Below, one piece after another: positions 4,038 through 47,874 of a stretch of DNA of 64,000 bases (its first letter is position 1; each line of letters opens with the position of its first letter). The DNA is from Chitinophagaceae bacterium IBVUCB2 (GTDB taxonomy: Bacteria; Bacteroidota; Bacteroidia; Chitinophagales; Chitinophagaceae): the NCBI GenBank assembly GCA_002127295.1, contig NFUV01000002.1, positions 372,001-436,000 on the forward strand, read 5' to 3'. The translations under genes were made by a program, and so were the position numbers. The notes under the pieces are model-generated. The model was not told the origin of the DNA. It saw only the letters and a list, made by a program, of their open reading frames with translations, and searched no databases.

Positions 4038-4595
4038 ATGAAATTATACATAAAGAATATGGTTTGTAACCGTTGTATAATGGTTGTAAAACAAGAACTG
4101 GAAAATCTAAAAATACTTCCTGCTTTTGTCAGCCTGGGCGAAGTAGAATTGGCAAAGCCAGCTACAAACAAACAATTACATTCATTATCTAAAAACTTGC
4201 AGGATTTAGGGTTTGAAATACTGGATGATAAAAAGCAAAAACAAATAGAAAAAATTAAGAGTTTGCTGATAAAAAAAGTGCAGTCTGGTAATATAGAAGA
4301 GCATTTCAGCATCACTGCTTATTTAACCAAAGAAATAAACAAGGACTATAGTTATATTACCCGGTTGTTTTCCGAAGTAGAAGGCATTACTATTGAGCAA
4401 TTCTTTATCCTGCAAAAGATTGAGAAAGTTAAAGAGTGGTTGGTATATGGCGAATTGAACTTAAGTGAAATTTCATACCAATTGGGATATAGTAGCGTAG
4501 CTCATCTTTCTGCTCAGTTTAAAAAAGTAACCGGCTTTTCACCCAGTCAATTTAAAAAAATCAGGGGTCAGCGTAAGTTCCTTGATGAAGTATAG
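4038..4595 (+). CDS. AraC-type regulator with N-terminal HMA-like metal-sensing domain (copy 1)
   Basis: A 185-residue protein in two parts. Residues 1-75 look like a ferredoxin-fold heavy-metal-associated (HMA) domain with MVCNRC (cysteines 10 and 13) after the first strand. Residues 85-185 are an AraC-family DNA-binding domain ending in the second helix-turn-helix block (LSEISYQLGYSSVAHLSAQFKKVTG, residues about 145-170). The natural reading is a cytoplasmic metal-responsive activator in which Cu(I) or another soft metal binds the two cysteines. It sits just upstream of the HMA-MauE gene, whose promoter carries a candidate operator. A close paralogue in the same arrangement lies at 35256-35840. 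The metal and the DNA target are inferred. Confidence 0.85.
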   Translation: MKLYIKNMVCNRCIMVVKQELENLKILPAFVSLGEVELAKPATNKQLHSLSKNLQDLGFEILDDKKQKQIEKIKSLLIKKVQSGNIEEHFSITAYLTKEINKDYSYITRLFSEVEGITIEQFFILQKIEKVKEWLVYGELNLSEISYQLGYSSVAHLSAQFKKVTGFSPSQFKKIRGQRKFLDEV

Positions 4596-4611
4596 CATTT
4601 AAATACAATTC

Positions 4612-4658
4612 TTTTCCATAATACTGTAACTCCCGGCAAATCCATCGAAATACCTTTG
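4612..4658 (+). promoter_or_regulatory. Promoter with candidate HMA-AraC operator, HMA-MauE copy 1
   Basis: TTTTCCATAATACTGTAAC at 4612-4630 is followed by exactly 20 bases and then TACCTTTG (4651-4658), a good Bacteroidota -7 box. The TGTAAC part takes the place of the -33 element. The same layout occurs upstream of four other metal genes in this window. Transcription would start near 4664, which excludes the TTG at 4656 as translation start. Confidence 0.6.
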
Positions 4659-4676: not shown

Positions 4677-5390
4677 ATGACACATACCTATAAACTTACG
4701 GGAATGACCTGCGGCAATTGCGAGGCAAAAGTAAAAAGTAGCCTGCTGTTGGTACCCGGTGTAACAGAAGTGGAAGTATCTAAAGAAAAGCAAACGGCCA
4801 CCATCAGCATGGAAAAGCATATTGCTTTGTCTTCTTTTCAAAATGCGTTGGATCCGAAATACATCCTTACTGCAGACCAACACAACGAAGTTGCAGAACA
4901 GACCAAAAACTGGCTAGTTACCTATAAACCCGTGTTACTGATTTTTGCCTATATCACCGGCATTACATTGCTTGTTGAATGGATGCAGGGTGGCTTTTTG
5001 TGGATGCGTTGGATGAACCACTTTATGGCCGCTTTTTTCCTGGTATTTTCTTTTTTCAAGTTGCTGAATATAAAAGGCTTTGCAGAAAGCTACAGCATGT
5101 ATGATATAGTGGCTAAACAATGGAAAGGCTGGGGATATGTGTATGCTTTTACAGAACTGGCTTTAGGTATCGCATTTCTTACAGGCTTTAATCCTATTGT
5201 TACTAATGCAGTTACCTTTGTTGTAATGACGGTGAGCATTGTGGGAGTTTTACAAAGTGTACTAAATAAGAAAAAAATAAAATGTGCATGCCTGGGAGAT
5301 GTGTTTAATCTGCCCATGAGCACTATTACGATAATAGAAGATGCACTGATGATTGGAATGAGTGGCTTTATGTTATTAGCTGTACTGTAA
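4677..5390 (+). CDS. HMA domain fused to MauE/DoxX-like membrane protein (copy 1)
   Basis: A 237-residue protein. Residues 1-70 form a classical HMA domain with MTCGNC (Cys at 12 and 15). Residues 85-237 hold four hydrophobic helices of the MauE/DoxX type, with CACLG at 203-207, the cysteine pair typical of MauE-like redox membrane proteins. It probably takes metal, or electrons for metal reduction, through the inner membrane. The ATG at 4677 is chosen because the upstream in-frame TTG (4656) lies inside the -7 box. The stop overlaps the start of a 27-residue gene (TAATG). A paralogue with the same neighbours is at 35910-36650. The substrate is not evident from sequence. Confidence 0.85.
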   Translation: MTHTYKLTGMTCGNCEAKVKSSLLLVPGVTEVEVSKEKQTATISMEKHIALSSFQNALDPKYILTADQHNEVAEQTKNWLVTYKPVLLIFAYITGITLLVEWMQGGFLWMRWMNHFMAAFFLVFSFFKLLNIKGFAESYSMYDIVAKQWKGWGYVYAFTELALGIAFLTGFNPIVTNAVTFVVMTVSIVGVLQSVLNKKKIKCACLGDVFNLPMSTITIIEDALMIGMSGFMLLAVL

Positions 5391-5473: not shown

Positions 5474-5485
5474 AAAGCGAAGAAT

Positions 5486-5550
5486 GTCATAATTCTGTAA
5501 CTTTTACCCATAATTCTATCAACTCATTTCCATAAAATAGGCTAATTTTG
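5486..5550 (+). promoter_or_regulatory. Promoter with tandem candidate operators, HYC_CC_PP gene
   Basis: Two copies of the shared element lie in tandem: GTCATAATTCTGTAAC at 5486-5501 and ACCCATAATTCTATCAAC at 5506-5523. TAATTTTG (5543-5550) follows 19 bases after the second copy. A further TTTCCATA half-match is at 5527-5534. The -7 box ends only five bases before the GTG start at 5556, so the message may be leaderless. Confidence 0.55.
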
Positions 5551-5555
5551 ACAAA

Positions 5556-5942
5556 GTGAAGAAAACGGTAGTCATATTATTAATGCTCATTTATGGTTCT
5601 GCAACCATGGGGGCTAATGTACACCTGCACTATTGTATGAATGAATTGGTTGGCTGGAGCTTCCTGCACAGTGAAGATGAAGAGTGCGGAAGATGTGGCA
5701 TGAAAGAAGATTCAACCGGCTGTTGCAAAGACGAACACAAGCATTTTAAACTAAAAGCTGACCACCAGAAAGCTGCGCCGGGATTTATAGCAAACTATGC
5801 GGCCCCCGCAATACTTACTCCCATTCCTGATTTTAATTTTCAACTCCATGAAAAGGATATTGAAAATTATATTACTTGCCATGCACCCCCGGATATTGGC
5901 AATACAAGGCTGCATATTCTTCATAGCGTTTTCCTGATATGA
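5556..5942 (+). CDS. HYC_CC_PP family secreted protein
   Basis: A 128-residue protein with a signal peptide and the three signatures that name this Bacteroidota family: HYC at 25-27, CC at 56-57 within GCCKDEHKH, and PP at 111-112 (CHAPPD). Further Cys and His residues (ECGRCGM, HKH) make metal binding likely. Start is GTG at 5556; the next in-frame ATG (codon 10) would destroy the signal peptide. It follows its own promoter with two candidate operators, right after the microprotein gene. A divergent relative with a His-rich middle is at 47353-47874 behind the same type of promoter. Biochemical function is unknown; a role in copper handling is inferred from context. Confidence 0.8.
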   Translation: MKKTVVILLMLIYGSATMGANVHLHYCMNELVGWSFLHSEDEECGRCGMKEDSTGCCKDEHKHFKLKADHQKAAPGFIANYAAPAILTPIPDFNFQLHEKDIENYITCHAPPDIGNTRLHILHSVFLI

Positions 5943-9625: not shown

Positions 9626-12301
9626 ATGGACAACATTCGTAACGACTTTACTTTTCACGCAACAACAATAGAAGAAGCCAATGTATTGCTTTTCAGTAAT
9701 ACCGAACAGGGTTTAAGCGTTGATGAAGCTAAAGCAAGGCTTCGACATTTCGGCTTGAATGCTATCGAAGAAGCCAAACCAATCAGTCCACTTAGAATTT
9801 TAATTAACCAGTTCAAAAGTCCCATTGTTTTTTTGCTTTTATTCGCAGCGGCCATGTCTTTTTGGTTTAAAGAATGGCTGGATGGCATTGCTATTTTACT
9901 TATCCTTGTGATCAATGCAGTAATAGGCTTTTATATGGAGTTTAAAGCGCATAAATCTGTGGCGGCTTTAAGAAAACTCTCTTCTATACCTGCAAAAGTG
10001 CTGCGAAGTGGAAAATTGCTTGAAATTAATGCTGAAGAAATAGTACCAGGCGATATTGTATTTACTGAAGCTGGTGATATGATACCGGCGGATGGCAGAA
10101 TATATAAGTCTTCGCAATTACTGATTGACGAATCAGCACTAACCGGCGAGTCTGTACCCGTTGAAAAAAAAGATGCTGTGCTTCCCGAAGCAACTATCCT
10201 GGGAGACCGCACCAATATGGCTTTTAAGGCTACACATGTATCAAAAGGCAATGCATATATATTGGTAGGTACAATAGGTATGAAAACGGAATTAGGTAAG
10301 ATAGCCAACCTTGTTCATTCATCAAAGCAGTCTGCTACGCCATTAGAAAAGAAACTGGAAGAGTTTAGCAAAAAACTGATAAAAATTACCATTGGCTTAG
10401 TGGTAATCATTTTTGGTATAGGATTGATTAATGGCGAAGAAATTATTAGTATGCTGCAAACTGTGGTTGCTCTTGCAGTGGCAGCTATTCCAGAGGGTTT
10501 ACCTATCGTAGCAACAATGACGTTAGCCCGAGGCATGCTAAAAATGTCCCGTTACCATGTCATTGTCAAAAAACTTTCTGCTGTTGAAACCTTAGGCGGC
10601 ACCAATGTGATTTGTACCGATAAGACAGGTACCCTTACTCAAAATAAAATGGAGGTGGTGTTTGTAGACACTCCTTCTGGTACATGGAAAAAAGATATTC
10701 CCTTTACGGGCAATAAGAAGCAGTTGGAATTAATATCACAATGTGCTGTTTTATGTAACACCGCCCATATTCAAACATCTGGGAAAGAAGCAAAGGAAAT
10801 TGGTGATCCTTTGGAAATAGCCTTACTAAAGTTTTCAAATAATAATGGTGAAGACATCAATAAAGTACGGAAAGAATTTTTAAAAAAAGATGAAGAGCCC
10901 TTCTCCAGCGAAACAAAGATCATGTCTACATTGCATGAACACAATGGTAAGTATTATGTTTTTGCAAAAGGTGCCCCGGAAGAGTTATTGCTGAAGTGCA
11001 CAGGGATTTATGAAGATAGTACCGGGAGTTTTGATACAACAAAAAAGGAACAATGGTTGTCAACAGCGGAAAATTTTTCTGCATCCGGTCATCGCATGAT
11101 TGCCATGGCATACCGGGAAATTGAAAGTGTACCATCTTCATTAATAAATGACCTGATTTTTCTTGGATTGATTGGTATGATTGATCCGCCAAGACCTGAA
11201 GTACAATCGGCCATCAATGATTGTAAAACAGCGGGAATTAAAGTGGTTATGATCACCGGCGATCATCCGGCAACTGCACATTTTATAGGAAATCAATTGG
11301 GTATATCAACAGAAGCCGAATTACCAGTGATAGGGAAGGACATGAAAGAGTATGAAGAGTTGAGTGAAGAAGAAAAGCAGCGTTGGATCAATACTTCGGT
11401 TTTTGCCCGTGTCAATCCAAAGCATAAGCTTGACCTGGTAAAAGTTTTCCAGGAAAAAGGATTTGTGGTGGGAATGACGGGTGATGGTGTAAATGATGCA
11501 CCGGCTATAAAAAAATCTGATATCGGTATTGCAATGGGGCTTAGAGGGACACAAGTAGCCCAGGAAGTTGCAGATATGGTATTGAAAGATGATTCCTTCT
11601 CTTCTATAGTGGTAGCTATCAAACAGGGGCGTATCATTTTTGAGAACATCAAAAAATTTGTAACTTTTCTTCTTTCCTGTAATCTCAGTGAACTACTGGT
11701 AATAGCAACTGTGGCTGTTATGAATCTTCACTTCCAGTTGTTGCCCCTGCAAATACTATTTATCAATCTTATTACAGATTTATTGCCAGCCCTTGCTTTA
11801 GGTCTTATCAAAGGAGGAGCAAATATTATGAAACAGCCGCCCCGGAAATCCTCCGAACCTATTATTGATAAAAGCCGCTGGAAACTCATTTTCTTTTATG
11901 CCATAGTTATTGGGTTGGTAAGTACGGGTGCAGTAATTTTTAATCATTATGCATACCATAATGATGAGCCTTGGGATGCTGCTATGTGTAATAACATACT
12001 GTTTTTTACCCTTATTTTTTGCCAGCTTTTTCATGTATTTAATATGGGTAGTGGGCCGTTCTTTAATAACGAGGTCATTAAAAATAAGTATATCTGGTAT
12101 GCAGTGACAGGAAGCCTTGTTATTTTAATTGCGGTGATACAGATCCCCTACGTCCGTGAAGCATTGAATATTATATCCATGACAATGCAGGAATGGATAA
12201 TTATTGTTTCAGCAAGTGTTTCATCAATACTAATAATACAGGCAGCAAAATCTTTTAAACTATTTAAAAATAAAGTGCAACAGCATCAAATTAAAGTATG
12301 A
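9626..12301 (+). CDS. P-type cation ATPase, PEGLP class (P2-like)
   Basis: An 891-residue P-type ATPase. The N-terminal cation-ATPase domain is at 8-75 and the actuator TGES near 173. PEGLP in the fourth transmembrane helix is near 290, the phosphorylated Asp of DKTGTLT at 332, and GDGVNDAP near 618; six C-terminal helices follow. PEGLP rather than CPC/CPH, and the lack of HMA domains, place it with Ca2+/Mg2+/Mn2+-type P2 pumps rather than P1B copper pumps. Yet its stop overlaps the cusA start (ATGA), so it is the first gene of the RND efflux operon. Its substrate may therefore be a divalent metal, or it may repair ion balance under metal stress. Confidence 0.85.
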   Translation: MDNIRNDFTFHATTIEEANVLLFSNTEQGLSVDEAKARLRHFGLNAIEEAKPISPLRILINQFKSPIVFLLLFAAAMSFWFKEWLDGIAILLILVINAVIGFYMEFKAHKSVAALRKLSSIPAKVLRSGKLLEINAEEIVPGDIVFTEAGDMIPADGRIYKSSQLLIDESALTGESVPVEKKDAVLPEATILGDRTNMAFKATHVSKGNAYILVGTIGMKTELGKIANLVHSSKQSATPLEKKLEEFSKKLIKITIGLVVIIFGIGLINGEEIISMLQTVVALAVAAIPEGLPIVATMTLARGMLKMSRYHVIVKKLSAVETLGGTNVICTDKTGTLTQNKMEVVFVDTPSGTWKKDIPFTGNKKQLELISQCAVLCNTAHIQTSGKEAKEIGDPLEIALLKFSNNNGEDINKVRKEFLKKDEEPFSSETKIMSTLHEHNGKYYVFAKGAPEELLLKCTGIYEDSTGSFDTTKKEQWLSTAENFSASGHRMIAMAYREIESVPSSLINDLIFLGLIGMIDPPRPEVQSAINDCKTAGIKVVMITGDHPATAHFIGNQLGISTEAELPVIGKDMKEYEELSEEEKQRWINTSVFARVNPKHKLDLVKVFQEKGFVVGMTGDGVNDAPAIKKSDIGIAMGLRGTQVAQEVADMVLKDDSFSSIVVAIKQGRIIFENIKKFVTFLLSCNLSELLVIATVAVMNLHFQLLPLQILFINLITDLLPALALGLIKGGANIMKQPPRKSSEPIIDKSRWKLIFFYAIVIGLVSTGAVIFNHYAYHNDEPWDAAMCNNILFFTLIFCQLFHVFNMGSGPFFNNEVIKNKYIWYAVTGSLVILIAVIQIPYVREALNIISMTMQEWIIIVSASVSSILIIQAAKSFKLFKNKVQQHQIKV

Positions 12302-13560
12302 TCAGCAATTTAATTAAATGGGCTTTAAAGAACCGCATGGTTGTTTTGCTGATAGCAGCTGGTGTTACTGCCTATGGTATTTATTCGGTAAACAATACCA
12401 AGGTAGATGCCATACCTGACCTGTCTGAAAACCAGGTTATCATATTTACGGAATGGATGGGCCGAAGTCCGCAGATTATGGAAGACCAGGTAACATACCC
12501 CTTAGTTAGTAATCTGCAGGGCATACCTAAAATAAAAAATATCCGTGCCAACTCCATGTTCGGGATGAGTTTTGTATTTGTAATTTTTGAAGACGATGTT
12601 GACATTTACTGGGCCCGTACAAGAGTATTGGAACGGCTTAATTATGCCCAGCGTTTATTGCCGCAAAATGTTGTACCCACATTAGGTCCAGATGGCACCG
12701 GTTTAGGACATATTTTCTGGTACACATTAGATGCACCCTCTCATGATTTAGGCGAATTAAGAGCCTTGCAAGACTGGTACATCAAATTTGCTTTGCAGAC
12801 AGTATCAGGTGTAAGTGAAGTGGCATCTTTTGGGGGCTTTCAAAAACAGTATCAGATTGTAATTGATCCGCACAAGCTAACCTATTACAACATTCCCTTA
12901 ATGGATGTGATTGAAAAAGTAAGAGCGAACAATAATGATGTTGGCGGAAGAAAATTTGAGATGGCTGATATGGGATATATCATAAGGGGTATTGGCTACA
13001 TCACACAGATAAAGGACATTGAAGAAATACCATTAATAACGCAGGGTTCTGTTCCCATCCGGATAAAAGATATTGCTACCGTGCAAATGGGTGGCGAACT
13101 GCGGTTGGGGATTATAGAAGAAAATGGTGAAGGAGAAAAAGTGGGTGGAATAGTAATCATGCGATATGGAGAAAATGCAAAAAATGTAATTGATAAAGTA
13201 AAAGAAAAAATAAAAGATGTTGAAAAGGGTTTACCACCCGGTGTAAAGTTTCATGTGGCATATGATCGGTCAGATTTGATTCAAGCTACGATTGAGACCT
13301 TAAAAAAAGCAGTGATTGAAGAGATCATTGTGGTGGCAATTGTGCTGTTCATCTTCCTGTTGCATGTACGTAGTGCTTTAGTAGTGATTATAACGATCCT
13401 GATGAGTGTCCTGATTTCCTTCATCATGATGGATTGGTTTAATGTAAGCTCCAACATCATGTCGCTGGCTGGTGTTGCATTGGCAATAGGTGACCTGGTG
13501 GATGCCGGAATTGTAATGGTGGAAAATGCTGTTAAATCTATCTCGGATGACACAGACTAA
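12298..13560 (+). CDS. cusA: CusA N-terminal half (TM1 to TM4)
   Basis: 420 residues with transmembrane helix 1 (MVVLLIAAGVTAYGIYSV) and the porter domains with the CusA-type GPDGTGLGHIFWYTL block. Helices 2-4 follow, including the proton-relay helix GDLVDAGIVMVENAVK with the acidic residues (D, D, E) conserved in heavy-metal RND pumps. The ATG overlaps the ATPase stop by four bases. It ends at TAA just after SISDDTD, inside the loop where homologues continue. On its own it lacks the second repeat of the pump and cannot form a normal trimer protomer. Confidence 0.8.
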   Translation: MISNLIKWALKNRMVVLLIAAGVTAYGIYSVNNTKVDAIPDLSENQVIIFTEWMGRSPQIMEDQVTYPLVSNLQGIPKIKNIRANSMFGMSFVFVIFEDDVDIYWARTRVLERLNYAQRLLPQNVVPTLGPDGTGLGHIFWYTLDAPSHDLGELRALQDWYIKFALQTVSGVSEVASFGGFQKQYQIVIDPHKLTYYNIPLMDVIEKVRANNNDVGGRKFEMADMGYIIRGIGYITQIKDIEEIPLITQGSVPIRIKDIATVQMGGELRLGIIEENGEGEKVGGIVIMRYGENAKNVIDKVKEKIKDVEKGLPPGVKFHVAYDRSDLIQATIETLKKAVIEEIIVVAIVLFIFLLHVRSALVVIITILMSVLISFIMMDWFNVSSNIMSLAGVALAIGDLVDAGIVMVENAVKSISDDTD

Positions 13561-13569
13561 AAAATAGAT

Positions 13570-15462
13570 ATGATTTCTAACGAAGAAAGATTAAAAAGAA
13601 TTGAAAGCTCTTCTGTCCTGGTAGGAAAGGCAGTTTTCAGTTCTATATTGATTACGTTGGTATCGTTTGCGCCAATACTGTTTTTGGAAGGCCAGGAAAA
13701 AAAATTATTTACACCTCTTGTTCTTACCAAGACGTTTGCCATGATAGGTTCTGCTCTTGTAGCAATTTTTTTGGTGCCTGTGCTAATGTCAATGATGTTA
13801 AAAGGTAAAATGCGGTCTGAAAAAAAGCATCCGGTATCCCGATTTTTTCTGTGGCTGTATAATCCTGTGATCCGCTGGTGTCTTCGCTGGAAGAAAACAA
13901 CGATTGCAATTGCTTTTGTCCTGGTAGCTGCAAGTATTCCATTTGTAATGCGGTTAGGTTCAGAATTTATGCCACCGCTGGATGAAGGTTCTTTGTTATT
14001 TATGCCGGTAACACTTCCGGACGTTTCTAATACTGAAATAAAACGTATCCTGCAGGTACAGGATAAATTGATTAAGACTGTACCTGAAGTACATAATGTA
14101 TTAGGAAAAGCAGGAAGGGCAAATACGGCTACTGACAATTCCCCCATCAGCATGATTGAAACCATTGTTCTGCTAAAACCACAATCTGAATGGCGGAAAG
14201 GAATGACGAAAACTAAGATCATTGAGGAACTAAATAGTAAACTGCAAATTCCCGGGGTAATTAATGGATGGACACAGCCAATCATCAATCGTATCAATAT
14301 GCTTTCGACAGGTATCCGTACAGATGTCGGTATAAAAGTTTATGGTCAAAGCCTTGATTCAATCAATGTGCTGGCTCAACAGTTTAAAGTGGCATTAACG
14401 GGTGTGGAGGGAGTAAAAGATTTATATGTAGAACCGATTGTTGGAGGTAAGTATGTTGAAATAAAAATTAAACGGGAAGAAATTGGTCGTTACGGTTTAA
14501 ATGTGGATGATATTAATATGGTAGTTGAATCATCCATTGGTGGAATGAATATTACCACTACCATTGAAGGGCGGCAACGCTTTTCAGTGAATGCCCGTTT
14601 CGCCCAGGATTTTCGCAATAATATAGAGCAGTTAAAAAACCTTTTAGTTACCAGCCCCAGTGGACCCATTCCCCTTTCCGCAGTTGCTGATGTGTATATA
14701 GCCGAAGGTCCACCTATGATTACTTCAGAAAACGCCATGCTGCGGGGCACATTATTGTTTAATGTACGGGAAAGAGATTTAGGAAGTACGGTAAATGATG
14801 CGAAAAACAAATTAGACAGCCTCGTTCAAAAATTGCCAAAAGGATATTTTATAGAATGGAGCGGACAATACGAAAACCAGGTGAGGGCAGAAAAGCGATT
14901 AAAGATTCTGATTCCAGTTGTACTCCTTATTATTATGGTCATTCTATATTTCACCTTCCATACTTACCGGGAGGTATTAATTGTACTCTCAAGTATTCCA
15001 GTAGCCTTAGTAGGCGGTGCTTATTCACTCTTTTTTTTCGATGTAAACTTTTCGGTAGCAGTGGCGGTAGGTTTTATTGCCTTATTCGGCATAGCTGTAG
15101 AAACAGGTGTGCTTATGTTAGTGTATTTAAATAATTCCCTATATAATAAGGTGCGCAAAAAAAAGGAATCCGGCGAGCCTCTAAAAAACAGTGATATTGA
15201 AGAAGCGGTGTATGAAGGTGCGGCTCTCAGGCTACGTCCAAAATTAATGACTGTATTGGTGGACATATTTGGATTGTTACCACTGTTGCTGGCCGCGGGC
15301 ACGGGCAGCGATGTAATGAAGCCCATCGCCATTCCATTTGTATTTGGTTTGGTTACATCTACTTTTTTTGTATTGATTGTTTTACCTGCCATGTATGCAC
15401 TGGTCAGGGAAAATGAATTGAAGAAAAGAGGCAAAGTAATAATTGAAGAATTAAAAGATTAA
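13570..15462 (+). CDS. cusA: CusA C-terminal half (TM5 to TM12)
   Basis: 630 residues in the same frame as the N-terminal half, starting at an ATG 10 bases after the TAA. It begins in the loop (NEERLKRIESSSVLVGKAVF) and continues with helices 5 and 6, the second periplasmic domain and helices 7-12. Met residues in the periplasmic part (RINMLSTG, GGMNITTT, ENAMLRG) are candidates for the Cu/Ag path known from CusA. I see no convincing ribosome-binding site before 13570, although such sites are weak in this lineage. Independent translation would give a split pump. Confidence 0.75.
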   Translation: MISNEERLKRIESSSVLVGKAVFSSILITLVSFAPILFLEGQEKKLFTPLVLTKTFAMIGSALVAIFLVPVLMSMMLKGKMRSEKKHPVSRFFLWLYNPVIRWCLRWKKTTIAIAFVLVAASIPFVMRLGSEFMPPLDEGSLLFMPVTLPDVSNTEIKRILQVQDKLIKTVPEVHNVLGKAGRANTATDNSPISMIETIVLLKPQSEWRKGMTKTKIIEELNSKLQIPGVINGWTQPIINRINMLSTGIRTDVGIKVYGQSLDSINVLAQQFKVALTGVEGVKDLYVEPIVGGKYVEIKIKREEIGRYGLNVDDINMVVESSIGGMNITTTIEGRQRFSVNARFAQDFRNNIEQLKNLLVTSPSGPIPLSAVADVYIAEGPPMITSENAMLRGTLLFNVRERDLGSTVNDAKNKLDSLVQKLPKGYFIEWSGQYENQVRAEKRLKILIPVVLLIIMVILYFTFHTYREVLIVLSSIPVALVGGAYSLFFFDVNFSVAVAVGFIALFGIAVETGVLMLVYLNNSLYNKVRKKKESGEPLKNSDIEEAVYEGAALRLRPKLMTVLVDIFGLLPLLLAAGTGSDVMKPIAIPFVFGLVTSTFFVLIVLPAMYALVRENELKKRGKVIIEELKD

Positions 15463-19873: not shown

Positions 19874-19930
19874 TACTCATGGAAAGTAAATTAAGGATCG
19901 AACAACCGAAAATATAAATAAGTATAAATC

Positions 19931-19977
19931 ATTTCCATAATTGTATAACATGAAATAAATATGATTTATCAATTTTG
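19931..19977 (+). promoter_or_regulatory. Promoter with candidate HMA-AraC operator, CPH-type ATPase
   Basis: ATTTCCATAATTGTATAAC (19931-19949), then exactly 20 bases, then CAATTTTG (19970-19977). This matches the layout before HMA-MauE copy 1 and before the gene at 47353. The leader to the ATG at 20053 would be about 70 bases. Confidence 0.55.
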
Positions 19978-20052: not shown

Positions 20053-22329
20053 ATGAAACATCAGGATCATCAACAATACAGCTGCCCCATGCATCCTGAA
20101 ATAAAAAAGGATATGCCGGGCAGCTGTCCAAAATGTGGGATGAATTTAGTTCCGCTGAATTGGAAGCAAAATGAGGGTCATTCAAATCCTCATGAGGATA
20201 CTAAAGCTGATAAACATATAGGACAAGAACAACAACCTGCTAAAGGGAGAAACACTAACGTAGCAAAAGAGTTTCAAAAATACACTTGCCCTATGCACCC
20301 TCAGGTTGTTCAGGATGTGCCGGGCAAATGTCCTTTATGTGGAATGACATTGGTGCCGTTTACAAAATCAAAAGATGGTTCCTCCCATACCTCACATTCT
20401 TCTGGCATTGCCGATTTTAAAAAACGGTTTTATGTTGTATTGATTTTAACTATCCCTATCATGTTGTTATCAGAAATGATTCAGCATTGGTTGAATATCC
20501 ATTTCAGCTTCCCCGGCTCAAAATATGTATTGCTTGCTTTGTCATCGGTTGTTTTCTTTTATGGTGGCTGGCCTTTTTTGAAGGGCCTGGTGGGTGAAAT
20601 AAAGGTGAAAAATCCCGGCATGATGACCCTGATTGGATTTGCTATTTCTGTCGCTTATATCTATAGTGTAGCAACAGTGTTTGGATTGGAGGGCATGGAT
20701 TTCTTTTGGGAATTGGCAACATTGATTTTAATTATGTTGTTAGGTCATTGGATTGAAATGAGATCTGTGGCAGGTGCATCGAGGGAATTGCAATTACTGG
20801 TTCAGTTAATGCCGGATGATGCACATTTAGTAGATGGTGAAAAAGTGACTGATGTAAAAACTGAAACCCTGAAAGAGGGTGATGTTATATTAATAAAACC
20901 GGGAGAAAAAGTAGCAGCCGATGGCATTATATCAGACGGTAAAAGTTATCTGAATGAATCCATGCTTACCGGTGAATCAAAGCCGGTGGAGAAAGCAAAA
21001 GGAGATAAGGTAATTGCTGGTTCTATTAACGGAAACGGTTCTATTAAAGTTACCGTATCTCATGGTGCGAAAGATTCTTATCTCTCACAGGTAATAAAGT
21101 TGGTTGATGATGCACAAAAATCAAAATCTAAAACCCAATTGGTTGCAGACAAAGCTGCAAAATGGCTAACAGCGATTGCAATTATTGCCGGCATTGGTAC
21201 TTTCTTATATTGGTATTTAACCGGGCAAACCTTGGCTTTTGCAATGGAAAGAATGGTGACAGTAATTGTTATCTGTTGTCCCCATGCTTTAGGATTGGCA
21301 GTGCCTTTAGTAGTTGCAAAATCGACTGCCTTATCTGCAAAAAATGGATTACTAATTAAGAACAGAACAGCATTTGAGAATGCAAGAAAAATAACCACCA
21401 TCGTATTTGATAAAACAGGCACTTTAACTGTAGGAAAATTTGAAGTGTCTAAAATAGTTTCCGTCCAAAATGATTTAAGTGAAAATGAGATCATTCGCCT
21501 GGCATCGGCATTAGAGCAAAACTCAGAACATCCTATTGCTACCGGCATCCTGCAAAAAGTAAAAGACTTATCTATCACAATTCCGGCAACAGACAACTTT
21601 AATGCAATAACCGGCAAAGGAGTTGAAGCAACTGTGGAAGGGAAAAAGATATCAGTAGTTAGCCCGGGTTATTTAAAAGAAAAAAATATTACTGTTCCGG
21701 ATGGCTTTACCGCTAATGACACGGAAACGGTTGTGTTTGTAATTATTGATGATCAATTAGCAGGATATATAGCATTGTCAGATGAGATAAGACCCGAATC
21801 CGCTGAAGCAATTAAAATACTGAAAGAAAACAACATCAAATCCATATTACTCACAGGCGACAATAATAAAGTGGCTGCAAGTGTAAGCAAAACATTAGGC
21901 ATGGATAGTTTTTTTGCCGAAGTATTACCTCATCAGAAATTAGAAAAAATAAAAGAGCTGCAAAGTAAAGGAGAGTTTGTGGCAATGAGTGGTGATGGGG
22001 TAAATGATGCGCCTGCACTTGCCCAGGCTGATATTGGCATTGCTGTTGGCAGCGGCAGCGATATTGCAGCAGAAACAGCAGGCATTGTATTGGTGAATAG
22101 TAATCCTAATGATATTGTGAGTTTAGTGTTATTTGGCAAAGCCACTTACCGTAAGATGATCCAGAATTTAATTTGGGCAACAGGGTATAATGTAGTGGCA
22201 TTGCCATTAGCAGCCGGTGTTTTGTATAATCAGGGGGTTTTATTAAGCCCTGCTTCCGGTGCTGTTTTAATGACCGTCAGTACGATTGTTGTGGCCATCA
22301 ATGCAAGTATGCTAAAAGTAAAAAAATAA
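20053..22329 (+). CDS. copB: Copper P1B-type ATPase, CopB class, with two HMBDs
   Basis: A 758-residue copper-translocating ATPase. Instead of HMA domains the N-terminus carries two HMBDs (about 9-35 and 77-102) separated by a His-rich linker. Then follow the eight-helix P1B core, TGES near 317, the ion-site motif CPH at 409-411, DKTGTLT with phosphorylated Asp 453, the SEHP signature with His 493, and GDGVNDAPALAQAD. CPH marks the P1B-3 (CopB-like) class, reported to export Cu2+/Cu+ or Ag+. It has its own promoter with a candidate operator. The HMBDs probably deliver or sense metal. Confidence 0.9.
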   Translation: MKHQDHQQYSCPMHPEIKKDMPGSCPKCGMNLVPLNWKQNEGHSNPHEDTKADKHIGQEQQPAKGRNTNVAKEFQKYTCPMHPQVVQDVPGKCPLCGMTLVPFTKSKDGSSHTSHSSGIADFKKRFYVVLILTIPIMLLSEMIQHWLNIHFSFPGSKYVLLALSSVVFFYGGWPFLKGLVGEIKVKNPGMMTLIGFAISVAYIYSVATVFGLEGMDFFWELATLILIMLLGHWIEMRSVAGASRELQLLVQLMPDDAHLVDGEKVTDVKTETLKEGDVILIKPGEKVAADGIISDGKSYLNESMLTGESKPVEKAKGDKVIAGSINGNGSIKVTVSHGAKDSYLSQVIKLVDDAQKSKSKTQLVADKAAKWLTAIAIIAGIGTFLYWYLTGQTLAFAMERMVTVIVICCPHALGLAVPLVVAKSTALSAKNGLLIKNRTAFENARKITTIVFDKTGTLTVGKFEVSKIVSVQNDLSENEIIRLASALEQNSEHPIATGILQKVKDLSITIPATDNFNAITGKGVEATVEGKKISVVSPGYLKEKNITVPDGFTANDTETVVFVIIDDQLAGYIALSDEIRPESAEAIKILKENNIKSILLTGDNNKVAASVSKTLGMDSFFAEVLPHQKLEKIKELQSKGEFVAMSGDGVNDAPALAQADIGIAVGSGSDIAAETAGIVLVNSNPNDIVSLVLFGKATYRKMIQNLIWATGYNVVALPLAAGVLYNQGVLLSPASGAVLMTVSTIVVAINASMLKVKK

Positions 22330-35255: not shown

Positions 35256-35840
35256 GTGGAAACTAAAAAACTCTATATAAAAAACATGGTTTGCAACCGT
35301 TGCATAATGGTTGTAAAGCAGGAACTGGAAAAACTAAAGCTGATCCCGGCCTTGGTAAGCATGGGCGAAATAGAACTGTCAAAGCCTGCAACAGATAAGC
35401 AGTTGAAAAATCTGAACGTAAGATTAAATGAATTAGGCTTTGAATTATTAGACGACCAGAAGCAAAAACAAATAGAGAAGATAAAGAACCTGTTGATAAA
35501 AAAAGTACAGTCCGGCGAAGTAGAAGAGCATTTTAGTATCACCAATTATTTAAGTAAGGCTTTGAGCAAAGATTATAGTTATATCACCCGTTTGTTTTCC
35601 GAAGTTGAAGGAATTACTATTGAACAATTCTTTATTCTCCAAAAGATTGAGAAAGTAAAGGAATTGCTGGTATATGGAGAGTATAACCTTAGTGAAATCT
35701 CTTACCAGTTAGGGTATAGCAGCGTAGCTCACTTATCAGGACAGTTTAAAAAAGTAACCGGCCTAACTCCCAGTCATTTTAAAAAAATGGGAGGCAGCCA
35801 TCGCCACCCTTTAGATAATCTTCATTACAATAAAGTATAA
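35256..35840 (+). CDS. AraC-type regulator with N-terminal HMA-like domain (copy 2)
   Basis: A 194-residue paralogue of the regulator at 4038-4595, with the same MVCNRC metal motif (Cys 12 and 15) and the same AraC helix-turn-helix end (LSEISYQLGYSSVAHLSGQFKKVTG). It differs mainly in the HMA surface and has a longer C-terminus ending in HHR-like residues (SHRHPLDNLHYNKV). The start is GTG at 35256, four bases after a TATTTTTG box (35244-35251), so it may be read from a leaderless transcript. It lies upstream of the second HMA-MauE gene. It may respond to a different metal or concentration than copy 1. Confidence 0.84.
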   Translation: METKKLYIKNMVCNRCIMVVKQELEKLKLIPALVSMGEIELSKPATDKQLKNLNVRLNELGFELLDDQKQKQIEKIKNLLIKKVQSGEVEEHFSITNYLSKALSKDYSYITRLFSEVEGITIEQFFILQKIEKVKELLVYGEYNLSEISYQLGYSSVAHLSGQFKKVTGLTPSHFKKMGGSHRHPLDNLHYNKV

Positions 35841-35841
35841 C

Positions 35842-35891
35842 TCTTTCCCATCAGCCTGTAACATTCCCATTGCATTATTGACGGAACTTTG
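35842..35891 (+). promoter_or_regulatory. Promoter with candidate HMA-AraC operator, HMA-MauE copy 2
   Basis: The element TTTCCCATCAGCCTGTAAC ends at 35862, and GAACTTTG (35884-35891) follows after 21 bases. TTTCC, CAT and TGTAAC are kept as in copy 1 while the bases between differ, which points to these blocks as the bound part. Confidence 0.5.
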
Positions 35892-35909: not shown

Positions 35910-36650
35910 ATGACACATACATATAAAGTTTCAGGAATGACATGCGGCGGATGCCAGGCAAAAGTGCAGGGTTTATTATCAAAACTTGCAGGAGTTAAAA
36001 ATGTAAGCATTGATTTAGCAAAAGGCGAGGCCGCTATTGATATGGAAAAGCACATTGCAACTGCCGATTTGAAAGCTGCATTAAAAGACTATCCCAAATA
36101 CCAGTTAACAGAAACACCTTACCAGCAACCTGCAATTGTACCGATGGCTGATGATAAAGAAACTAAATCATGGATAGAAACTTACAAGCCTATATTGCTA
36201 ATCTTCGGATACATTATTGGTATAACAGTACTGGTTGAGTATATGAACGGCGGGTTTGTTTGGATGCGGTGGATGACTCATTTTATGGCTGGGTTCTTTT
36301 TGGTGTTTTCTTTTTTCAAGTTATTAAATCTGAAAGGCTTTGCAGAAAGCTACAGCATGTATGATATTGTGGCGAAAAAATGGAATAGCTGGGGCTATGT
36401 TTATGCGTTTATTGAACTGGCTTTAGGCATTGCATTCCTTACTGGGTTTAATCCCATTCTTACCAATAGCATTACCTTTGTGGTAATGTCAGTTAGTATT
36501 ATTGGCGTTCTGCAAAGTGTGGCTAATAAACGTAAAATAAAATGTGCCTGTTTGGGTGCAGTGTTTAATTTACCCATGAGTACCATCACCATTATTGAAG
36601 ATGCGTTAATGATAGCAATGAGTGGGTTAATGCTATTAACAATTTTATAA
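35910..36650 (+). CDS. HMA domain fused to MauE/DoxX-like membrane protein (copy 2)
   Basis: A 246-residue paralogue of the protein at 4677-5390. The HMA domain has MTCGGC (Cys 12 and 15), and a longer Pro-rich linker follows. The four MauE-like helices keep near-identical stretches (GFAESYSMYDIVAKKWNSWG) and the KIKCACLG cysteine pair. The strongest conservation between copies is in the membrane part; the HMA domain has drifted more. Its stop overlaps the second microprotein start (TAATG), exactly as in copy 1. The repeated pairing implies that the membrane protein and the microprotein work together. Confidence 0.85.
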   Translation: MTHTYKVSGMTCGGCQAKVQGLLSKLAGVKNVSIDLAKGEAAIDMEKHIATADLKAALKDYPKYQLTETPYQQPAIVPMADDKETKSWIETYKPILLIFGYIIGITVLVEYMNGGFVWMRWMTHFMAGFFLVFSFFKLLNLKGFAESYSMYDIVAKKWNSWGYVYAFIELALGIAFLTGFNPILTNSITFVVMSVSIIGVLQSVANKRKIKCACLGAVFNLPMSTITIIEDALMIAMSGLMLLTIL

Positions 36651-44168: not shown

Positions 44169-46367
44169 TTAGAACTTTGCGCCAACGGATATAAAAACGG
44201 TTCTGCCATCGGCAGGTAATGCGCCGGGACCGGGATAGCCACCTGCACGGCGGGTAAAGTATCTTTCATCAAATAAATTATTAATACCGGCCTTTATGTT
44301 GAGGCATTTATTAAATTTATAAGTAGCTGTTAAATCCATTACGGTGTAAGATGGTATTAACCCTGTATTTCCATTTGCAGATGCTGCAACAGTATTATTT
44401 GCATCGCTGAATGTTTCTCCCACACTGCTTATTTGTGTCGTTAACAAAAAGCCTTTATAACCTGCTGTAATACCACCACGAAAAATATTTACAGGTGCAT
44501 TCTCCACTTTCTTTCCTTTTGTATTGGCGTCTTTATGGTCGCCGCTGTATTTAGCATCGGTATTTCCATAAGAAGCAAAAAATATCACATCAGTATGTTG
44601 GCTTTTAGTGAATGCCCGTACCGGGTTAAATTCCACATACCCTTCAAACCCCTTGCTTGTACTTGCTCCTACATTTGTTATTAAACGATAAGTAGCGCCG
44701 GTAGGTGTAATGGTGCCAACACGGTTATTGTATTGCAGGTAGAAGCCGCTTACATCAAACTGAAGATAATTTTTCACTTTTCCACGATAGCCCAGGTCAA
44801 TATTATATCCTTTGGCATCTTTTAAATCAGGGTCAACCAAATCAGTTGTTGGCGGAGCCTGCAGGTTGGCAAATTGAATAGGACGATAGGCCTGCGAAAT
44901 ATTTCCGTAAATCTCTGTTGATTTGGTAATATGATATTCTGTTCCTATTCCTGTCAATAGGAAACTGCGGCTTCGGGTAATGTTTTGCAAAATTATTTCT
45001 GCCCGGCCTGAAGTATATCCGTTTCTTCCGGAGGAGGAACCTTCAAGCCACTCATACCGGATTCCTGGGATTATTAAAAACTTATCAGTTATTCGAAAAA
45101 TATTTTCTGCAAATGCAGCTATGTTTTTTGATTCAAAGGTTATATCACGGGGATAGTTTCCTGTTACCGATACATCATATGTTGTGCCGGTTGTTCCCTT
45201 ACCATCTGCCTGCCTGGTGGTAGTACCTGTATATAAACGAATGCCACCTGACAGTGTATTTTTCATTTTGCCTAAGTGATAGTCAGTGATGATACGGCTT
45301 TCTAAACCATAATTTCTGTATTGGTCAAGGTTCACAACCCTGCTATTATAATTAAGGGTCGTTGCATTGATGCTGTCTTTTGTTGTAATAGACTGTAAAA
45401 AGCCTACGCTGTTTCTGTTGCCAATAGTGCCAAACAGTTTTGTATTCCACCGGGTCTTTTCATTGAATTGATAATTGGCAATTAAAGCAGGTGTTGTCCA
45501 GGTTATGTCAAACCAGTTACGGCTGCGAAAACTCTGTTGAGCATCTTGTTTTATTTGTACATCCGTTAAACCACCCGGCTGCTGACTACGGATATGCGAA
45601 CGCATAACTTCGGCAGTTAATGAAAATTTGTTACTAAAATTATAGGTTACTGTTCCATAGCCTGCATTGGTGTAATAGCGGCTGTTTTGTCTCCAGCCAT
45701 CTCCATTGCGATGGTCGAAAAAAGTATAGTAATGAATTTTCCCTTTTTTACCGCCGATGGCATTGTAACTGTTGAACAACCCGTTACTGCCAACAGTTTG
45801 TTGTGTTTCAAATTCAATAGGTTTATTAATCTCACTGCCATTGCGTAAAATATAATTGATCAATCCCCCAAACTGAGGACCGTACTGCAGAGAGCCTTGC
45901 CCCCGAACAATTTCAATGCGTTGCACAGCCTGTAGTTGCGGATTATAGTATGCTTCAGGATAACCGAATGGGTCGGCAGCGATATCATAACCATTTTGCC
46001 GCACATTAAATTCCCAACTGCGGTTGGGGCTTAACCCTCTTGCAGCAATACCAATTTGAATTCCACTTGGGTCGCTTTCCCATATATGAATGCCCGGTAC
46101 TTTTGCCAGCACCTGGCGCATATTATTTGTTACTATATTTCCCTGCACATTATCCAATACAATCAATGCATTTTTTTTACCAGCATAAATATTAGTGCCA
46201 ACAATTTCCGGCATTTGCTGGTAATCGCTTTTGCTGTTTCTTCCTACTACAGTTACATCAGGCAGGTTCTTTACCTGGGTACTATCTGTTTCTTTTTTAT
46301 TGGTCTGTGCCTGTAAACAATTTGCTGTCGCTACGATAAAACAAAAAATAATTCCGCCTTTACTCAT
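44169..46367 (-). CDS. TonB-dependent outer-membrane receptor (FecA-like)
   Basis: A 732-residue receptor on the minus strand from ATG 46367 (the TTG at 46388 adds seven residues before the signal). A signal peptide (ending NCLQAQ) leads to the plug domain (LPDVTVVGRNSKSDYQQMPEIVGTNIYAGK, RQVLAKVPGIHIWE, IAARGLSPNRSWEF) and a 22-strand barrel ending in aromatic FISVGAKF. The plug resembles FecA-type siderophore receptors. The promoter carries a diverged copy of the metal-gene element, so it may import a metal chelate or copper-linked compound rather than iron. The substrate is unknown. Confidence 0.85.
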   Translation of the reverse strand: MSKGGIIFCFIVATANCLQAQTNKKETDSTQVKNLPDVTVVGRNSKSDYQQMPEIVGTNIYAGKKNALIVLDNVQGNIVTNNMRQVLAKVPGIHIWESDPSGIQIGIAARGLSPNRSWEFNVRQNGYDIAADPFGYPEAYYNPQLQAVQRIEIVRGQGSLQYGPQFGGLINYILRNGSEINKPIEFETQQTVGSNGLFNSYNAIGGKKGKIHYYTFFDHRNGDGWRQNSRYYTNAGYGTVTYNFSNKFSLTAEVMRSHIRSQQPGGLTDVQIKQDAQQSFRSRNWFDITWTTPALIANYQFNEKTRWNTKLFGTIGNRNSVGFLQSITTKDSINATTLNYNSRVVNLDQYRNYGLESRIITDYHLGKMKNTLSGGIRLYTGTTTRQADGKGTTGTTYDVSVTGNYPRDITFESKNIAAFAENIFRITDKFLIIPGIRYEWLEGSSSGRNGYTSGRAEIILQNITRSRSFLLTGIGTEYHITKSTEIYGNISQAYRPIQFANLQAPPTTDLVDPDLKDAKGYNIDLGYRGKVKNYLQFDVSGFYLQYNNRVGTITPTGATYRLITNVGASTSKGFEGYVEFNPVRAFTKSQHTDVIFFASYGNTDAKYSGDHKDANTKGKKVENAPVNIFRGGITAGYKGFLLTTQISSVGETFSDANNTVAASANGNTGLIPSYTVMDLTATYKFNKCLNIKAGINNLFDERYFTRRAGGYPGPGALPADGRTVFISVGAKF

Positions 46368-46402
46368 AAGTCTGATTTTGAGCGGCAAAGTTGTTGATAA
46401 TG

Positions 46403-46453
46403 CAAAGCTTAGCAGTTACCCATTTAGGAAATTGAGTTATACAATCGGGAAAA
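46403..46453 (-). promoter_or_regulatory. Candidate HMA-AraC operator, TonB receptor promoter
   Basis: On the minus strand TTTTCCCGATTGTATAAC lies at 46453-46436, followed after 24 bases by TAAGCTTTG (46411-46403). It resembles the copper ATPase promoter element, although the spacing is longer than the usual 20, so this is the weakest of the set. Confidence 0.35.
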
Positions 46454-46551
46454 ATGATTAAAGATTATCAGGCCATTGTTTTATTTCTGCTTAAACAAAG
46501 CTTGCAATCCCAGGTACATCTCAATATATTTATGACAGAAAGTTTGAAACC

Positions 46552-46607: not shown

Positions 46608-47234
46608 ATGAGAATAGTTTTTTTGATTATATCTTTTTTGTGTTTCGGCTTGATTGTAAATGCTCAAAGTTCCGGAACAGATTCCCTGCCTGTCAGGTTA
46701 AGTACTTTGGAAGCAAGGAGCAACGGCAATGACGCAAGGTTAGACTGGAAAGTGGTATGCTTTCTTGATTATGCAAAATTTGAAATTCAGCGCTCCTCTA
46801 ATGGTACAACTTACACAACCATTAATACTTTTGAAGCAGACCAATTGAGGTGCAGGCAGCCTTTTGACTATACAGATGCCAACATCAGCGGCAAGGCTTT
46901 CTACAGGATAAAAGTTGGCGATTTGGATGGAAGAATTTACAATTCCAAAATTGTTGCTGTAACCGGGAAAGAAAAGGGCTTTGAAATTAACAGCCTCACC
47001 CCAACTATGGTAACCACCAATGCTCTTTTAAGCATATCATCAGCCAGTGCAGATAATGCCCAAATAGCCATTGCCAATTTTCAGGGAATGATTGTAAAAC
47101 GGATAGCTGTTAAACTTAATAAGGGAGTAACAGAACTAACCATAGATGTCGCCTATCTGGCGCCGGGGAACTACGTTTTAACGCTAACTAACGGATTTTC
47201 AGACCGGAAAACAGTTCGATTTACGAAATTGTAA
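46608..47234 (+). CDS. Secreted protein with T9SS-type C-terminal domain
   Basis: From ATG 46608 this is a 208-residue exported protein (signal MRIVFLIISFLCFGLIVNAQ). The ATG at 46575 lies within the -10 block of its promoter and is rejected. The sequence LEARSNGNDARLDWKV, with FEIQRSSNGTTYTTI, is the fibronectin type III-like unit common in Bacteroidota surface proteins. The C-terminal 80 residues (ISSASADNAQIAIANFQGMIV, then LAPGNYVLTLTNG) fit a type IX secretion sorting domain. It probably ends up on the cell surface. The target and role are unknown; it is a likely member of the ECF regulon. Confidence 0.75.
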   Translation: MRIVFLIISFLCFGLIVNAQSSGTDSLPVRLSTLEARSNGNDARLDWKVVCFLDYAKFEIQRSSNGTTYTTINTFEADQLRCRQPFDYTDANISGKAFYRIKVGDLDGRIYNSKIVAVTGKEKGFEINSLTPTMVTTNALLSISSASADNAQIAIANFQGMIVKRIAVKLNKGVTELTIDVAYLAPGNYVLTLTNGFSDRKTVRFTKL

Positions 47235-47252
47235 TCCAAAATTTTATAACAA

Positions 47253-47299
47253 TTTTTCATAATTCTGTAAATAATGCCTCTTCCCAGCCCGTACCTTTG
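47253..47299 (+). promoter_or_regulatory. Promoter with candidate HMA-AraC operator, gene at 47353
   Basis: TTTTTCATAATTCTGTAAA (47253-47271), exactly 20 bases, then TACCTTTG (47292-47299). The -7 box is identical to that of HMA-MauE copy 1, and the element differs from it at a few bases only. Confidence 0.6.
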
Positions 47300-47352: not shown

Positions 47353-47874
47353 ATGAACCAAAGATTATCCATACAGCTAAAAGCATTATTTCTGCTCATT
47401 GTATTTGCATCAAATACAGCAGTAGGTTTTGCCTGTTCTTTAGGTGTTGATATGGACTTCAATACTTCCCATCATAATACTGCTGAAGAAGCAACGGAAG
47501 TGCATGTTCATGCCGATGGTAAAAAACATGACCATGGACAGGAACAAACTAATGTTAATGCTCATGATGATAGTACAAAGCACCACCACGCAATTGAAAC
47601 TGCAGGACAACATCAGGATGATAAAAATGCTTTGGAAAAAAATCAGGGAGGATGTTGCAGTGACGAAATACAAAAATTTCAAAATTTAGATAAGAATCTC
47701 AATCAAAATGTGAATCCTGGTATTGATGTACCGGTGTTTGTCGCAATTCTAAATACATTTTTGGGAGTTGATTTATCACAGGAAATTAAAGACTTCCCTA
47801 CAAAATACAAGGCCCGTTTTTTTTATCCTCCCCCGCCTGATATACGCATAGCGATACAAAGTTTCCAGATTTGA
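47353..47874 (+). CDS. His-rich secreted protein, HYC_CC_PP-like
   Basis: A 173-residue exported protein (signal ending VGFACS). A long middle part is packed with His, Asp and Glu (SHHNTAEEATEVHVHADGKK, then HDHGQEQ, HHHAIETAGQH), followed by GGCCSDE and a C-terminus with PPPPDIRIAIQSFQI. The CC and PP signatures and the final helix match the HYC_CC_PP family, and the promoter is of the same type as that of the 5556 member, but the HYC motif is not kept. It probably binds Cu2+ or Zn2+ in the periplasm ahead of the TolC-adaptor genes. Confidence 0.68.
   Translation: MNQRLSIQLKALFLLIVFASNTAVGFACSLGVDMDFNTSHHNTAEEATEVHVHADGKKHDHGQEQTNVNAHDDSTKHHHAIETAGQHQDDKNALEKNQGGCCSDEIQKFQNLDKNLNQNVNPGIDVPVFVAILNTFLGVDLSQEIKDFPTKYKARFFYPPPPDIRIAIQSFQI

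Follow-up and report, generated by a model that had tools for sequence, protein, structure and literature searches.

We analysed a stretch of 64,000 nucleotides from the Chitinophagaceae bacterium IBVUCB2 (GenBank assembly GCA_002127295.1, contig NFUV01000002.1, positions 372,001 to 436,000 of the forward strand), referred to below as the window, together with 4.0 Mb of genome that was scanned for further sites. The window carries a recurrent promoter element upstream of six genes, namely HMA-MauE copy 1 (MauE1), HMA-MauE copy 2 (MauE2), a HYC_CC_PP family gene (HYC), a CPH-type ATPase gene (CPH), a His-rich HYC_CC_PP-like gene (HYC2) and, in weaker form, a TonB receptor gene (TonB). It also carries two genes for a regulator, HMA-AraC, in which an HMA-like domain precedes an AraC-type double helix-turn-helix (HTH). 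In window coordinates, the regulator genes are:

4038..4595, + strand: HMA-AraC regulator 1, 185 amino acids, CxxC at residues 10-13, AraC double HTH (Pfam HTH_18, E 1.6e-15)
35256..35840, + strand: HMA-AraC regulator 2, 194 amino acids, 79-80% identical to copy 1

The AlphaFold2 (AF2) model of HMA-AraC 1 has a mean predicted local distance difference test score of 89 and shows a ferredoxin-like fold over residues ~1-62, followed by the AraC HTH domain. The order of the N-terminal domain is β-α-β-β-α-β (strands 2-6, 28-32, 35-38 and 60-62; helices 11-23 and 44-56), and the C-terminal AraC-type double HTH was confirmed. Both C10 and C13 are invariant in 20 of 20 HMA-AraC proteins picked from 31 window and family proteins, and in all 59 of a second set, which had been seeded with an HMA-AraC peptide.

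The element is built of a distal half-site, AAATnTTAYAAa, a proximal half-site, CCAaAATTnTRTAAC, a further 20-21 bp and a box of the form NAnnTTTG. Alignment of the six window sites shows the half-sites to be direct repeats shifted by 21 bp, readable at every site. The putative operator-promoters are:

4589..4658, + strand: MauE1; distal half-site 4589-4609 (weak), proximal 4610-4630, spacer 20, box 4651-4658 TACCTTTG
5481..5550, + strand: HYC; distal 5481-5501, proximal 5502-5522, spacer 20, box 5543-5550 TAATTTTG
19908..19977, + strand: CPH; distal 19908-19928, proximal 19929-19949, spacer 20, box 19970-19977 CAATTTTG
35821..35891, + strand: MauE2; distal 35821-35841, proximal 35842-35862, spacer 21, box 35884-35891 GAACTTTG
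46386..46456, - strand: TonB; distal 46456-46436, proximal 46435-46415, spacer 21, box 46393-46386 CAACTTTG
47230..47299, + strand: HYC2; distal 47230-47250, proximal 47251-47271, spacer 20, box 47292-47299 TACCTTTG

The distal half-sites of MauE1 and MauE2 overlap the 3′ ends of the HMA-AraC 1 and HMA-AraC 2 genes, respectively. A preliminary description of the window had placed an element TTTCCATAAT-n-TGTAAC, followed after 19-21 bases by TAnnTTTG, before five metal genes, and all five sites are in the sequence where it put them. Its nearly fixed spacing also holds, at 20 bp for MauE1, HYC (19 in an alternative register), CPH and HYC2 and at 21 bp for MauE2 and TonB. The consensus has to be loosened: TTTCCATAAT is exact only at MauE1 and CPH. 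A perfect TGTAAC is present at MauE1, at MauE2 and in the distal copy of HYC, and the remaining proximal copies read TATAAC, TGTAAA, TATCAA and GGTAAC. Similarly, the A and the TTTG of the proposed box stand, while its leading T is present in just three of the six sites, giving NAnnTTTG. The tandem arrangement described at HYC alone is indeed found there, but it extends to every window site, with MauE1 having a weak distal copy. A weaker sixth version had been reported before TonB at 46453-46436. It is present and is the weakest of the six; because these coordinates fall on the distal half-site, as does position 5486 at HYC, the TonB site is in fact complete.

The element beside HMA-AraC genes in relatives

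Of 195 genomes of the family, 146 encode an HMA-AraC homologue (best E with P0001 up to 1e-20), and by eye the motif could be seen before most HMA-MauE orthologues in a first group of loci from the family. Eighty HMA-AraC loci were then drawn from named genomes, these being the best 80 of at least 567, near-duplicates included; their titles name Chitinophagaceae, Flavobacterium and other flavobacteria, Bacteroidales, Cytophagales, Sphingobacteriaceae, Saprospiraceae, Ignavibacteria and others. With a model made from the six window sites, the best match of the whole locus on both strands fell within 260 bp after the HMA-AraC gene, on the same strand, in 44 of the 80 loci, compared to 0.72 expected. 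After refinement, a clear site lies no more than 280 bp past the HMA-AraC gene in 55 loci. In 38 of these 55 (e.g. L107, L103 and L125, from loci L080-L159), the stop codon of HMA-AraC and the 15-base core of the distal half-site overlap, suggesting that the operator extends into the 3′ end of the regulator gene.

The 55 locus sites and the six window sites together give a set of 61, whose base preferences self-correlate at 0.78 for a shift of 21 and at no more than 0.29 for other shifts from 14 to 26, a result that may be partly circular because the search that yielded the sites used a tandem model allowing spacers of 19-22. Between the end of the proximal half-site and the box there are 20-21 bp in all 55 locus sites (scan range 19-22), as in the six window sites. 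Across the 61 sites, the -7 box has A at position 2 in 60, a nearly fixed TTTG and the first T in 19. A TTG at N17-23 before the box occurs in only one of them, the end of the proximal half-site occupying that place. TGTAAC had been likened to an activator site at -33, and these data support a proximal half-site that takes the -33 region, where such a site would sit.

Specificity and co-occurrence with HMA-AraC

Short parts of the element carry little specificity. The hexamer TGTAAC alone occurs at chance (32 vs 31.6 expected), and the 17-bp core, when up to three mismatches are allowed, has 329 genome matches compared to 223 for reversed controls, a mild enrichment. Both were rejected as a sufficient definition, being too unspecific alone; the tandem and the -7 box are needed. 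A pattern that includes the -7 box, placed at 20 bp, gave 15 matches versus 3, and its top three are the MauE1, HYC2 and CPH sites.

We scored the window with a held-out model, a position matrix trained on the 55 locus sites and no window sites. It gave 36.7 for MauE1, 36.2 for CPH, 31.8 for HYC2, 28.8 for MauE2, 23.3 for HYC and 10.7 for TonB, and the next match in the window scored 3.3. The top score in 100 dinucleotide shuffles of the window was 22.2, so the five best sites stand above all shuffles; the TonB score was reached 0.18 times per shuffle. Furthermore, a matrix of 36 sites from other families (loci picked by record title outside Chitinophagaceae, Chitinophagales and unplaced bacteria, with Saprospiraceae kept) places the six sites at ranks 1-6 in the window. 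The profile R1, built from 48 non-window sites, was run on the genome with 150 of 5006 first-look candidates scored, and returned 28 matches with E up to 10. Among these, the window sites rank 1 (MauE1, 27.3 bits, E 1.6e-5), 2 (HYC2, 25.1 bits), 3 (CPH, 25.0 bits), 4 (MauE2, 20.3 bits), 8 (TonB, 18.2 bits) and 16 (HYC, 13.2 bits). Ranks 5, 6, 7, 9, 10 and 12 belong to a related class of GTGAAT type described below, and ranks 11, 13, 14 and 15 fall in neither group, those at 11 and 13 lying inside reading frames. These results confirm that the element is real, lies at the places first described and is specific as a full architecture, which is not as frequent before unrelated genes as before metal genes; the short core by itself is common.

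For the comparison among family genomes, HMA-AraC was counted as present at a best E up to 1e-20 and as absent above 1e-14, the intermediates G183 and G147 being excluded, and the R1 search used stricter filters than the single-genome scan. A match at E 0.01 was found in 130 of the 146 genomes that have HMA-AraC and in 10 of the 47 that lack it, and at E 1e-5 in 77 of 146 and 3 of 47, counts that ignore relatedness and include HMA-AraC-less genomes that are generally smaller. G155, which belongs to the same genus and encodes a P1B-type ATPase but no HMA-AraC, has no R1 match. The ten positive HMA-AraC-less genomes hold 25 matches with E up to 0.01, of which 12 are of GTGAAT type, as are 10 of the 14 with E up to 0.001. 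The notion that matches in such genomes reflect failure of the model is accordingly rejected only in part. One of them, locus L289 (G033:C27), has an HMA-like reading frame downstream of a copper-type tandem, in an assembly (790 contigs, 90% complete) that yielded no HMA-AraC.

Putative target genes and a second class of sites

The genes downstream of the six window sites are:

4677..5390, + strand: HMA-MauE fusion, copy 1 (target); Pfam HMA and MauE
5556..5942, + strand: HYC_CC_PP family gene (target); NCBIfam NF047658, 43.2 bits vs cut-off 28
20053..22329, + strand: P1B-type metal ATPase with two HMBD stretches (target); TIGR01511 ATPase-IB1_Cu 588.1 bits, Pfam HMBD
35910..36650, + strand: HMA-MauE fusion, copy 2 (target); Pfam HMA and MauE
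44169..46388, - strand: TonB-dependent receptor (probable target); Pfam Plug and TonB_dep_Rec_b-barrel
47353..47874, + strand: His-rich HYC_CC_PP-like gene (target); NF047658 20.6 bits, below the cut-off of 28

To learn what follows the element elsewhere, we picked by eye 40 sites classed as not adjacent to HMA-AraC among matches listed by E-value, passing over those near a listed HMA-AraC match. The choice is not exhaustive; several of the sites are within a few kb of HMA-AraC in one cluster with it, and one (L249) in fact directly follows an HMA-AraC gene. A downstream open reading frame (ORF) was obtained for 38 of the 40, and of these ORFs 20 match HMA, 11 E1-E2 (P-type) ATPase, two HMBD and two MauE. 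HYC_CC_PP-like ORFs follow two of the picked sites, L232 and L249, and the remaining ORFs have no evident metal link (e.g. ice-binding-like, AHSA1 and saccharopine-dehydrogenase-like) or no match. Among 33 control ORFs (12 stretches, 12 of the same genomes), HMA was not in the best 25 of 58 families, leaving at most one HMA match.

Several neighbours of the window sites lie on the same strand, including multicopper oxidase, DUF3347, HMBD and Cus-like genes. Downstream of the HYC gene are DUF3347, DUF2911 and HMBD genes and a Cus-like resistance-nodulation-division (RND) set, and an OEP-family efflux gene at 47969 comes after HYC2. The Cus-like RND pump is encoded by two adjacent ORFs (window 12298-15462, ACR_tran 2-415 and 418-1021), which may reflect a natural split, a frameshift or a sequencing error. 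Translation of the TonB receptor probably begins further in than its listed TTG, since this codon falls at the -7 box. For HYC, the GTG start is 6 bases past the -7 box, so that here, too, translation probably begins further downstream, unless the transcript is nearly leaderless.

The related class of sites is a 21-bp tandem whose distal half, GTGAATnATRTAA, differs from that of the copper type (AAAT). The GTGAAT pattern at up to two mismatches has 8 matches, compared to 3 for a reversed control. Seven tandem sites of this type with at most one mismatch are present in the genome, and four of them lie within ~3.3 kb around the gene of a third HMA-AraC paralogue (G000:C2:903281, outside the window), which is 50% identical and nearly the same in the region of the second recognition helix (SSVAHLSTQFKK vs SSVAHLSAQFKK). 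The locations are:

GTGAAT-type sites: L076 (G000:C2:895000-912000); G000:C2:935361-935394, C2:991892-991955, C1:1819007-1819069

The proteins scanned downstream of the genome's GTGAAT sites comprise one histidine kinase, one fatty acid desaturase and others without a Pfam match. In HMA-AraC-less genomes, GTGAAT sites precede, among others, YtxH-type genes and a Cys-rich DUF326 protein followed by a cupin (L263, G121:C144, 2001-2855). No copper ATPase or HMA protein is among the proteins scanned for this class in either setting. DUF326-type Cys-rich proteins may bind or store copper.

A candidate copper regulon and its alternatives

We consider it likely that the element is the operator-promoter of a one-component copper regulon activated by HMA-AraC. 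The two HMA-AraC proteins, which the preliminary description had put forward as binders, are the best candidates on the strength of adjacency in 55 of 80 loci, genome co-occurrence and the HMA and ATPase targets. From the sites computed here, their architecture, specificity, conservation beside HMA-AraC, co-occurrence and copper-type targets, we infer direct binding by HMA-AraC, activation rather than repression, and a Cu(I) signal. HMA-AraC combines an N-terminal Atx1-like domain carrying the invariant CxxC with a C-terminal AraC-type double HTH, and a pair of molecules would bind the two direct half-sites 21 bp, or two helical turns, apart. As the -33 region is taken up by the proximal half-site and holds no -33 element, the bound protein may itself recruit main-sigma RNA polymerase to the weak NAnnTTTG box, by analogy with AraC acting from araI1-araI2. 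The most likely signal would be Cu(I) bound to the CxxC motif in the HMA-like domain.

A number of observations weigh against this reading. Pfam HMA matches neither P0001 nor P0002 at E 0.001, so the N-terminal domain is called HMA-like by its fold and CxxC only, and ACT domains and metallochaperones fit HMA-AraC residues 1-63 equally well. In 25 of the 80 loci there is no clear site up to 280 bp from the regulator gene, and 16 of the 146 HMA-AraC-bearing genomes have no R1 match at E 0.01. Four matches with E up to 0.001 in HMA-AraC-less genomes are not of GTGAAT type (two in G032, one each in G154 and G033). Finally, because the GTGAAT tandem occurs where no HMA-AraC was found, other AraC proteins may read similar sites.

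This last point bears on the idea that the third HMA-AraC paralogue, or an HMA-less AraC protein, binds the sites and that HMA-AraC is a mere neighbour. The GTGAAT variant, with the same 21-bp tandem, lies near the third HMA-AraC gene as well as in HMA-AraC-less genomes, and the paralogue's second recognition helix is nearly unchanged. However, in 55 of 80 loci the HMA-AraC gene is immediately followed by a copper-type site, such sites and HMA-AraC co-occur across genomes, and the distal half-site distinguishes the two classes (AAAT vs GTGAAT), which makes this idea improbable. We also give little weight to a scheme in which metal-free HMA-AraC represses and metal releases it. A protein on the proximal half-site, over -33, could indeed block polymerase, but with no TTG at -33 in 60 of 61 sites the promoter looks weak without an activator, which a repressor would not need. 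Furthermore, in the available text on AraC, its position at araI1-araI2 resembles the one found here (PMC4760080).

It is unlikely, though less so, that the regulon answers to another metal or stress, such as silver, mercury, zinc or thiol stress, instead of Cu(I). HMA domains bind several soft metals, and the window ATPase has CPH and not CPC; against this, genes for CopA-type ATPases and small HMA proteins as well as HYC_CC_PP-like genes are among the targets, and multicopper oxidase and Cus-like genes are also present in the window. We regard it as most improbable that the element is a mere core promoter with AT-rich upstream DNA. Its -7 box is like that of the main Bacteroidota promoter and its short core is only mildly enriched, but such an origin would not account for the 21-bp self-correlation, the genome-wide specificity, the recovery of the sites by training on other families and the co-occurrence with HMA-AraC.

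The preferred reading, activation by HMA-AraC, can be set beside known systems. At araI1-araI2, the two half-sites are 21 bp apart in direct-repeat orientation, with an overlap of the -35 element. As the available text of one source has it, araI1-araI2 of E. coli comprises two adjacent operators beside the promoter, where promoter-proximal binding of AraC recruits polymerase (PMC4760080). Both systems would share two adjacent operators at the promoter, as in class II AraC/XylS activation, whereas the sensor of HMA-AraC is an HMA-like domain and that of AraC a sugar-binding cupin, and the promoter here is of the Bacteroidota -7 type. YbtA, the regulator of the copper response of the Yersinia high-pathogenicity island, is likewise an AraC-type protein in a copper response; it is not known to have an HMA domain. 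The Yersinia response is described, in the part of the paper available, as siderophore-dependent (PMC8725597). The main Bacteroidota promoter, of sigma-ABfr type, is given in the available text as TAnnTTTG at -7 with TTTG near -33 (PMC7366714). The element has the A at position 2 and the TTTG of the -7 box in common with it, but has no -33 element, and the first T of its box is not conserved.

Among copper sensors, CueR of the MerR family resembles HMA-AraC as proposed here, being a cytoplasmic metal sensor that regulates copA-type ATPase genes as a one-component system, but its fold and operator are unrelated. CsoR also controls copper ATPase genes; the available sections of the sources describe it as an all-helical repressor without a typical DNA-binding domain (PMC10141476), studied in gut Firmicutes (PMC4938975). 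In the accessible part of a survey of 76 marine bacteria at a cut-off of 1e-30, CueR homologues appear only in Pseudomonadota, and for Bacteroidota only two-component and extracytoplasmic function (ECF) sigma homologues are reported, with no one-component sensor of CueR or CsoR type (PMC10141476). As only two-component and ECF-sigma copper systems are reported there for marine Bacteroidota, our finding points at a gap. Among the papers listed in literature searches, which covered a minority of subscription papers, none describes an AraC protein with an HMA domain or the operator, which does not show that no such paper exists.

HAH1 dimers are bridged by Cu. A tentative extension, to which we give less than even chances, is that HMA-AraC is a general one-component Cu(I) sensor of Bacteroidota, a class apart from CueR, CsoR and CopY, in which Cu(I) bridging two HMA-like domains would set two AraC domains on the 21-bp tandem and turn copper export on phylum-wide, with a paralogous class reading the GTGAAT tandem for another stress. 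In summary, our data suggest that a Bacteroidota-wide copper-sensing family may use the element to activate genes for copper handling. Should HMA-AraC read this operator, a large phylum would gain a named copper sensor and an operator with a searchable profile, and the predicted regulon would comprise CopA-type ATPases, small HMA proteins, HMA-MauE, HYC_CC_PP and perhaps Cus-like pumps, which would also give a functional context to the HYC_CC_PP and HMA-MauE proteins.
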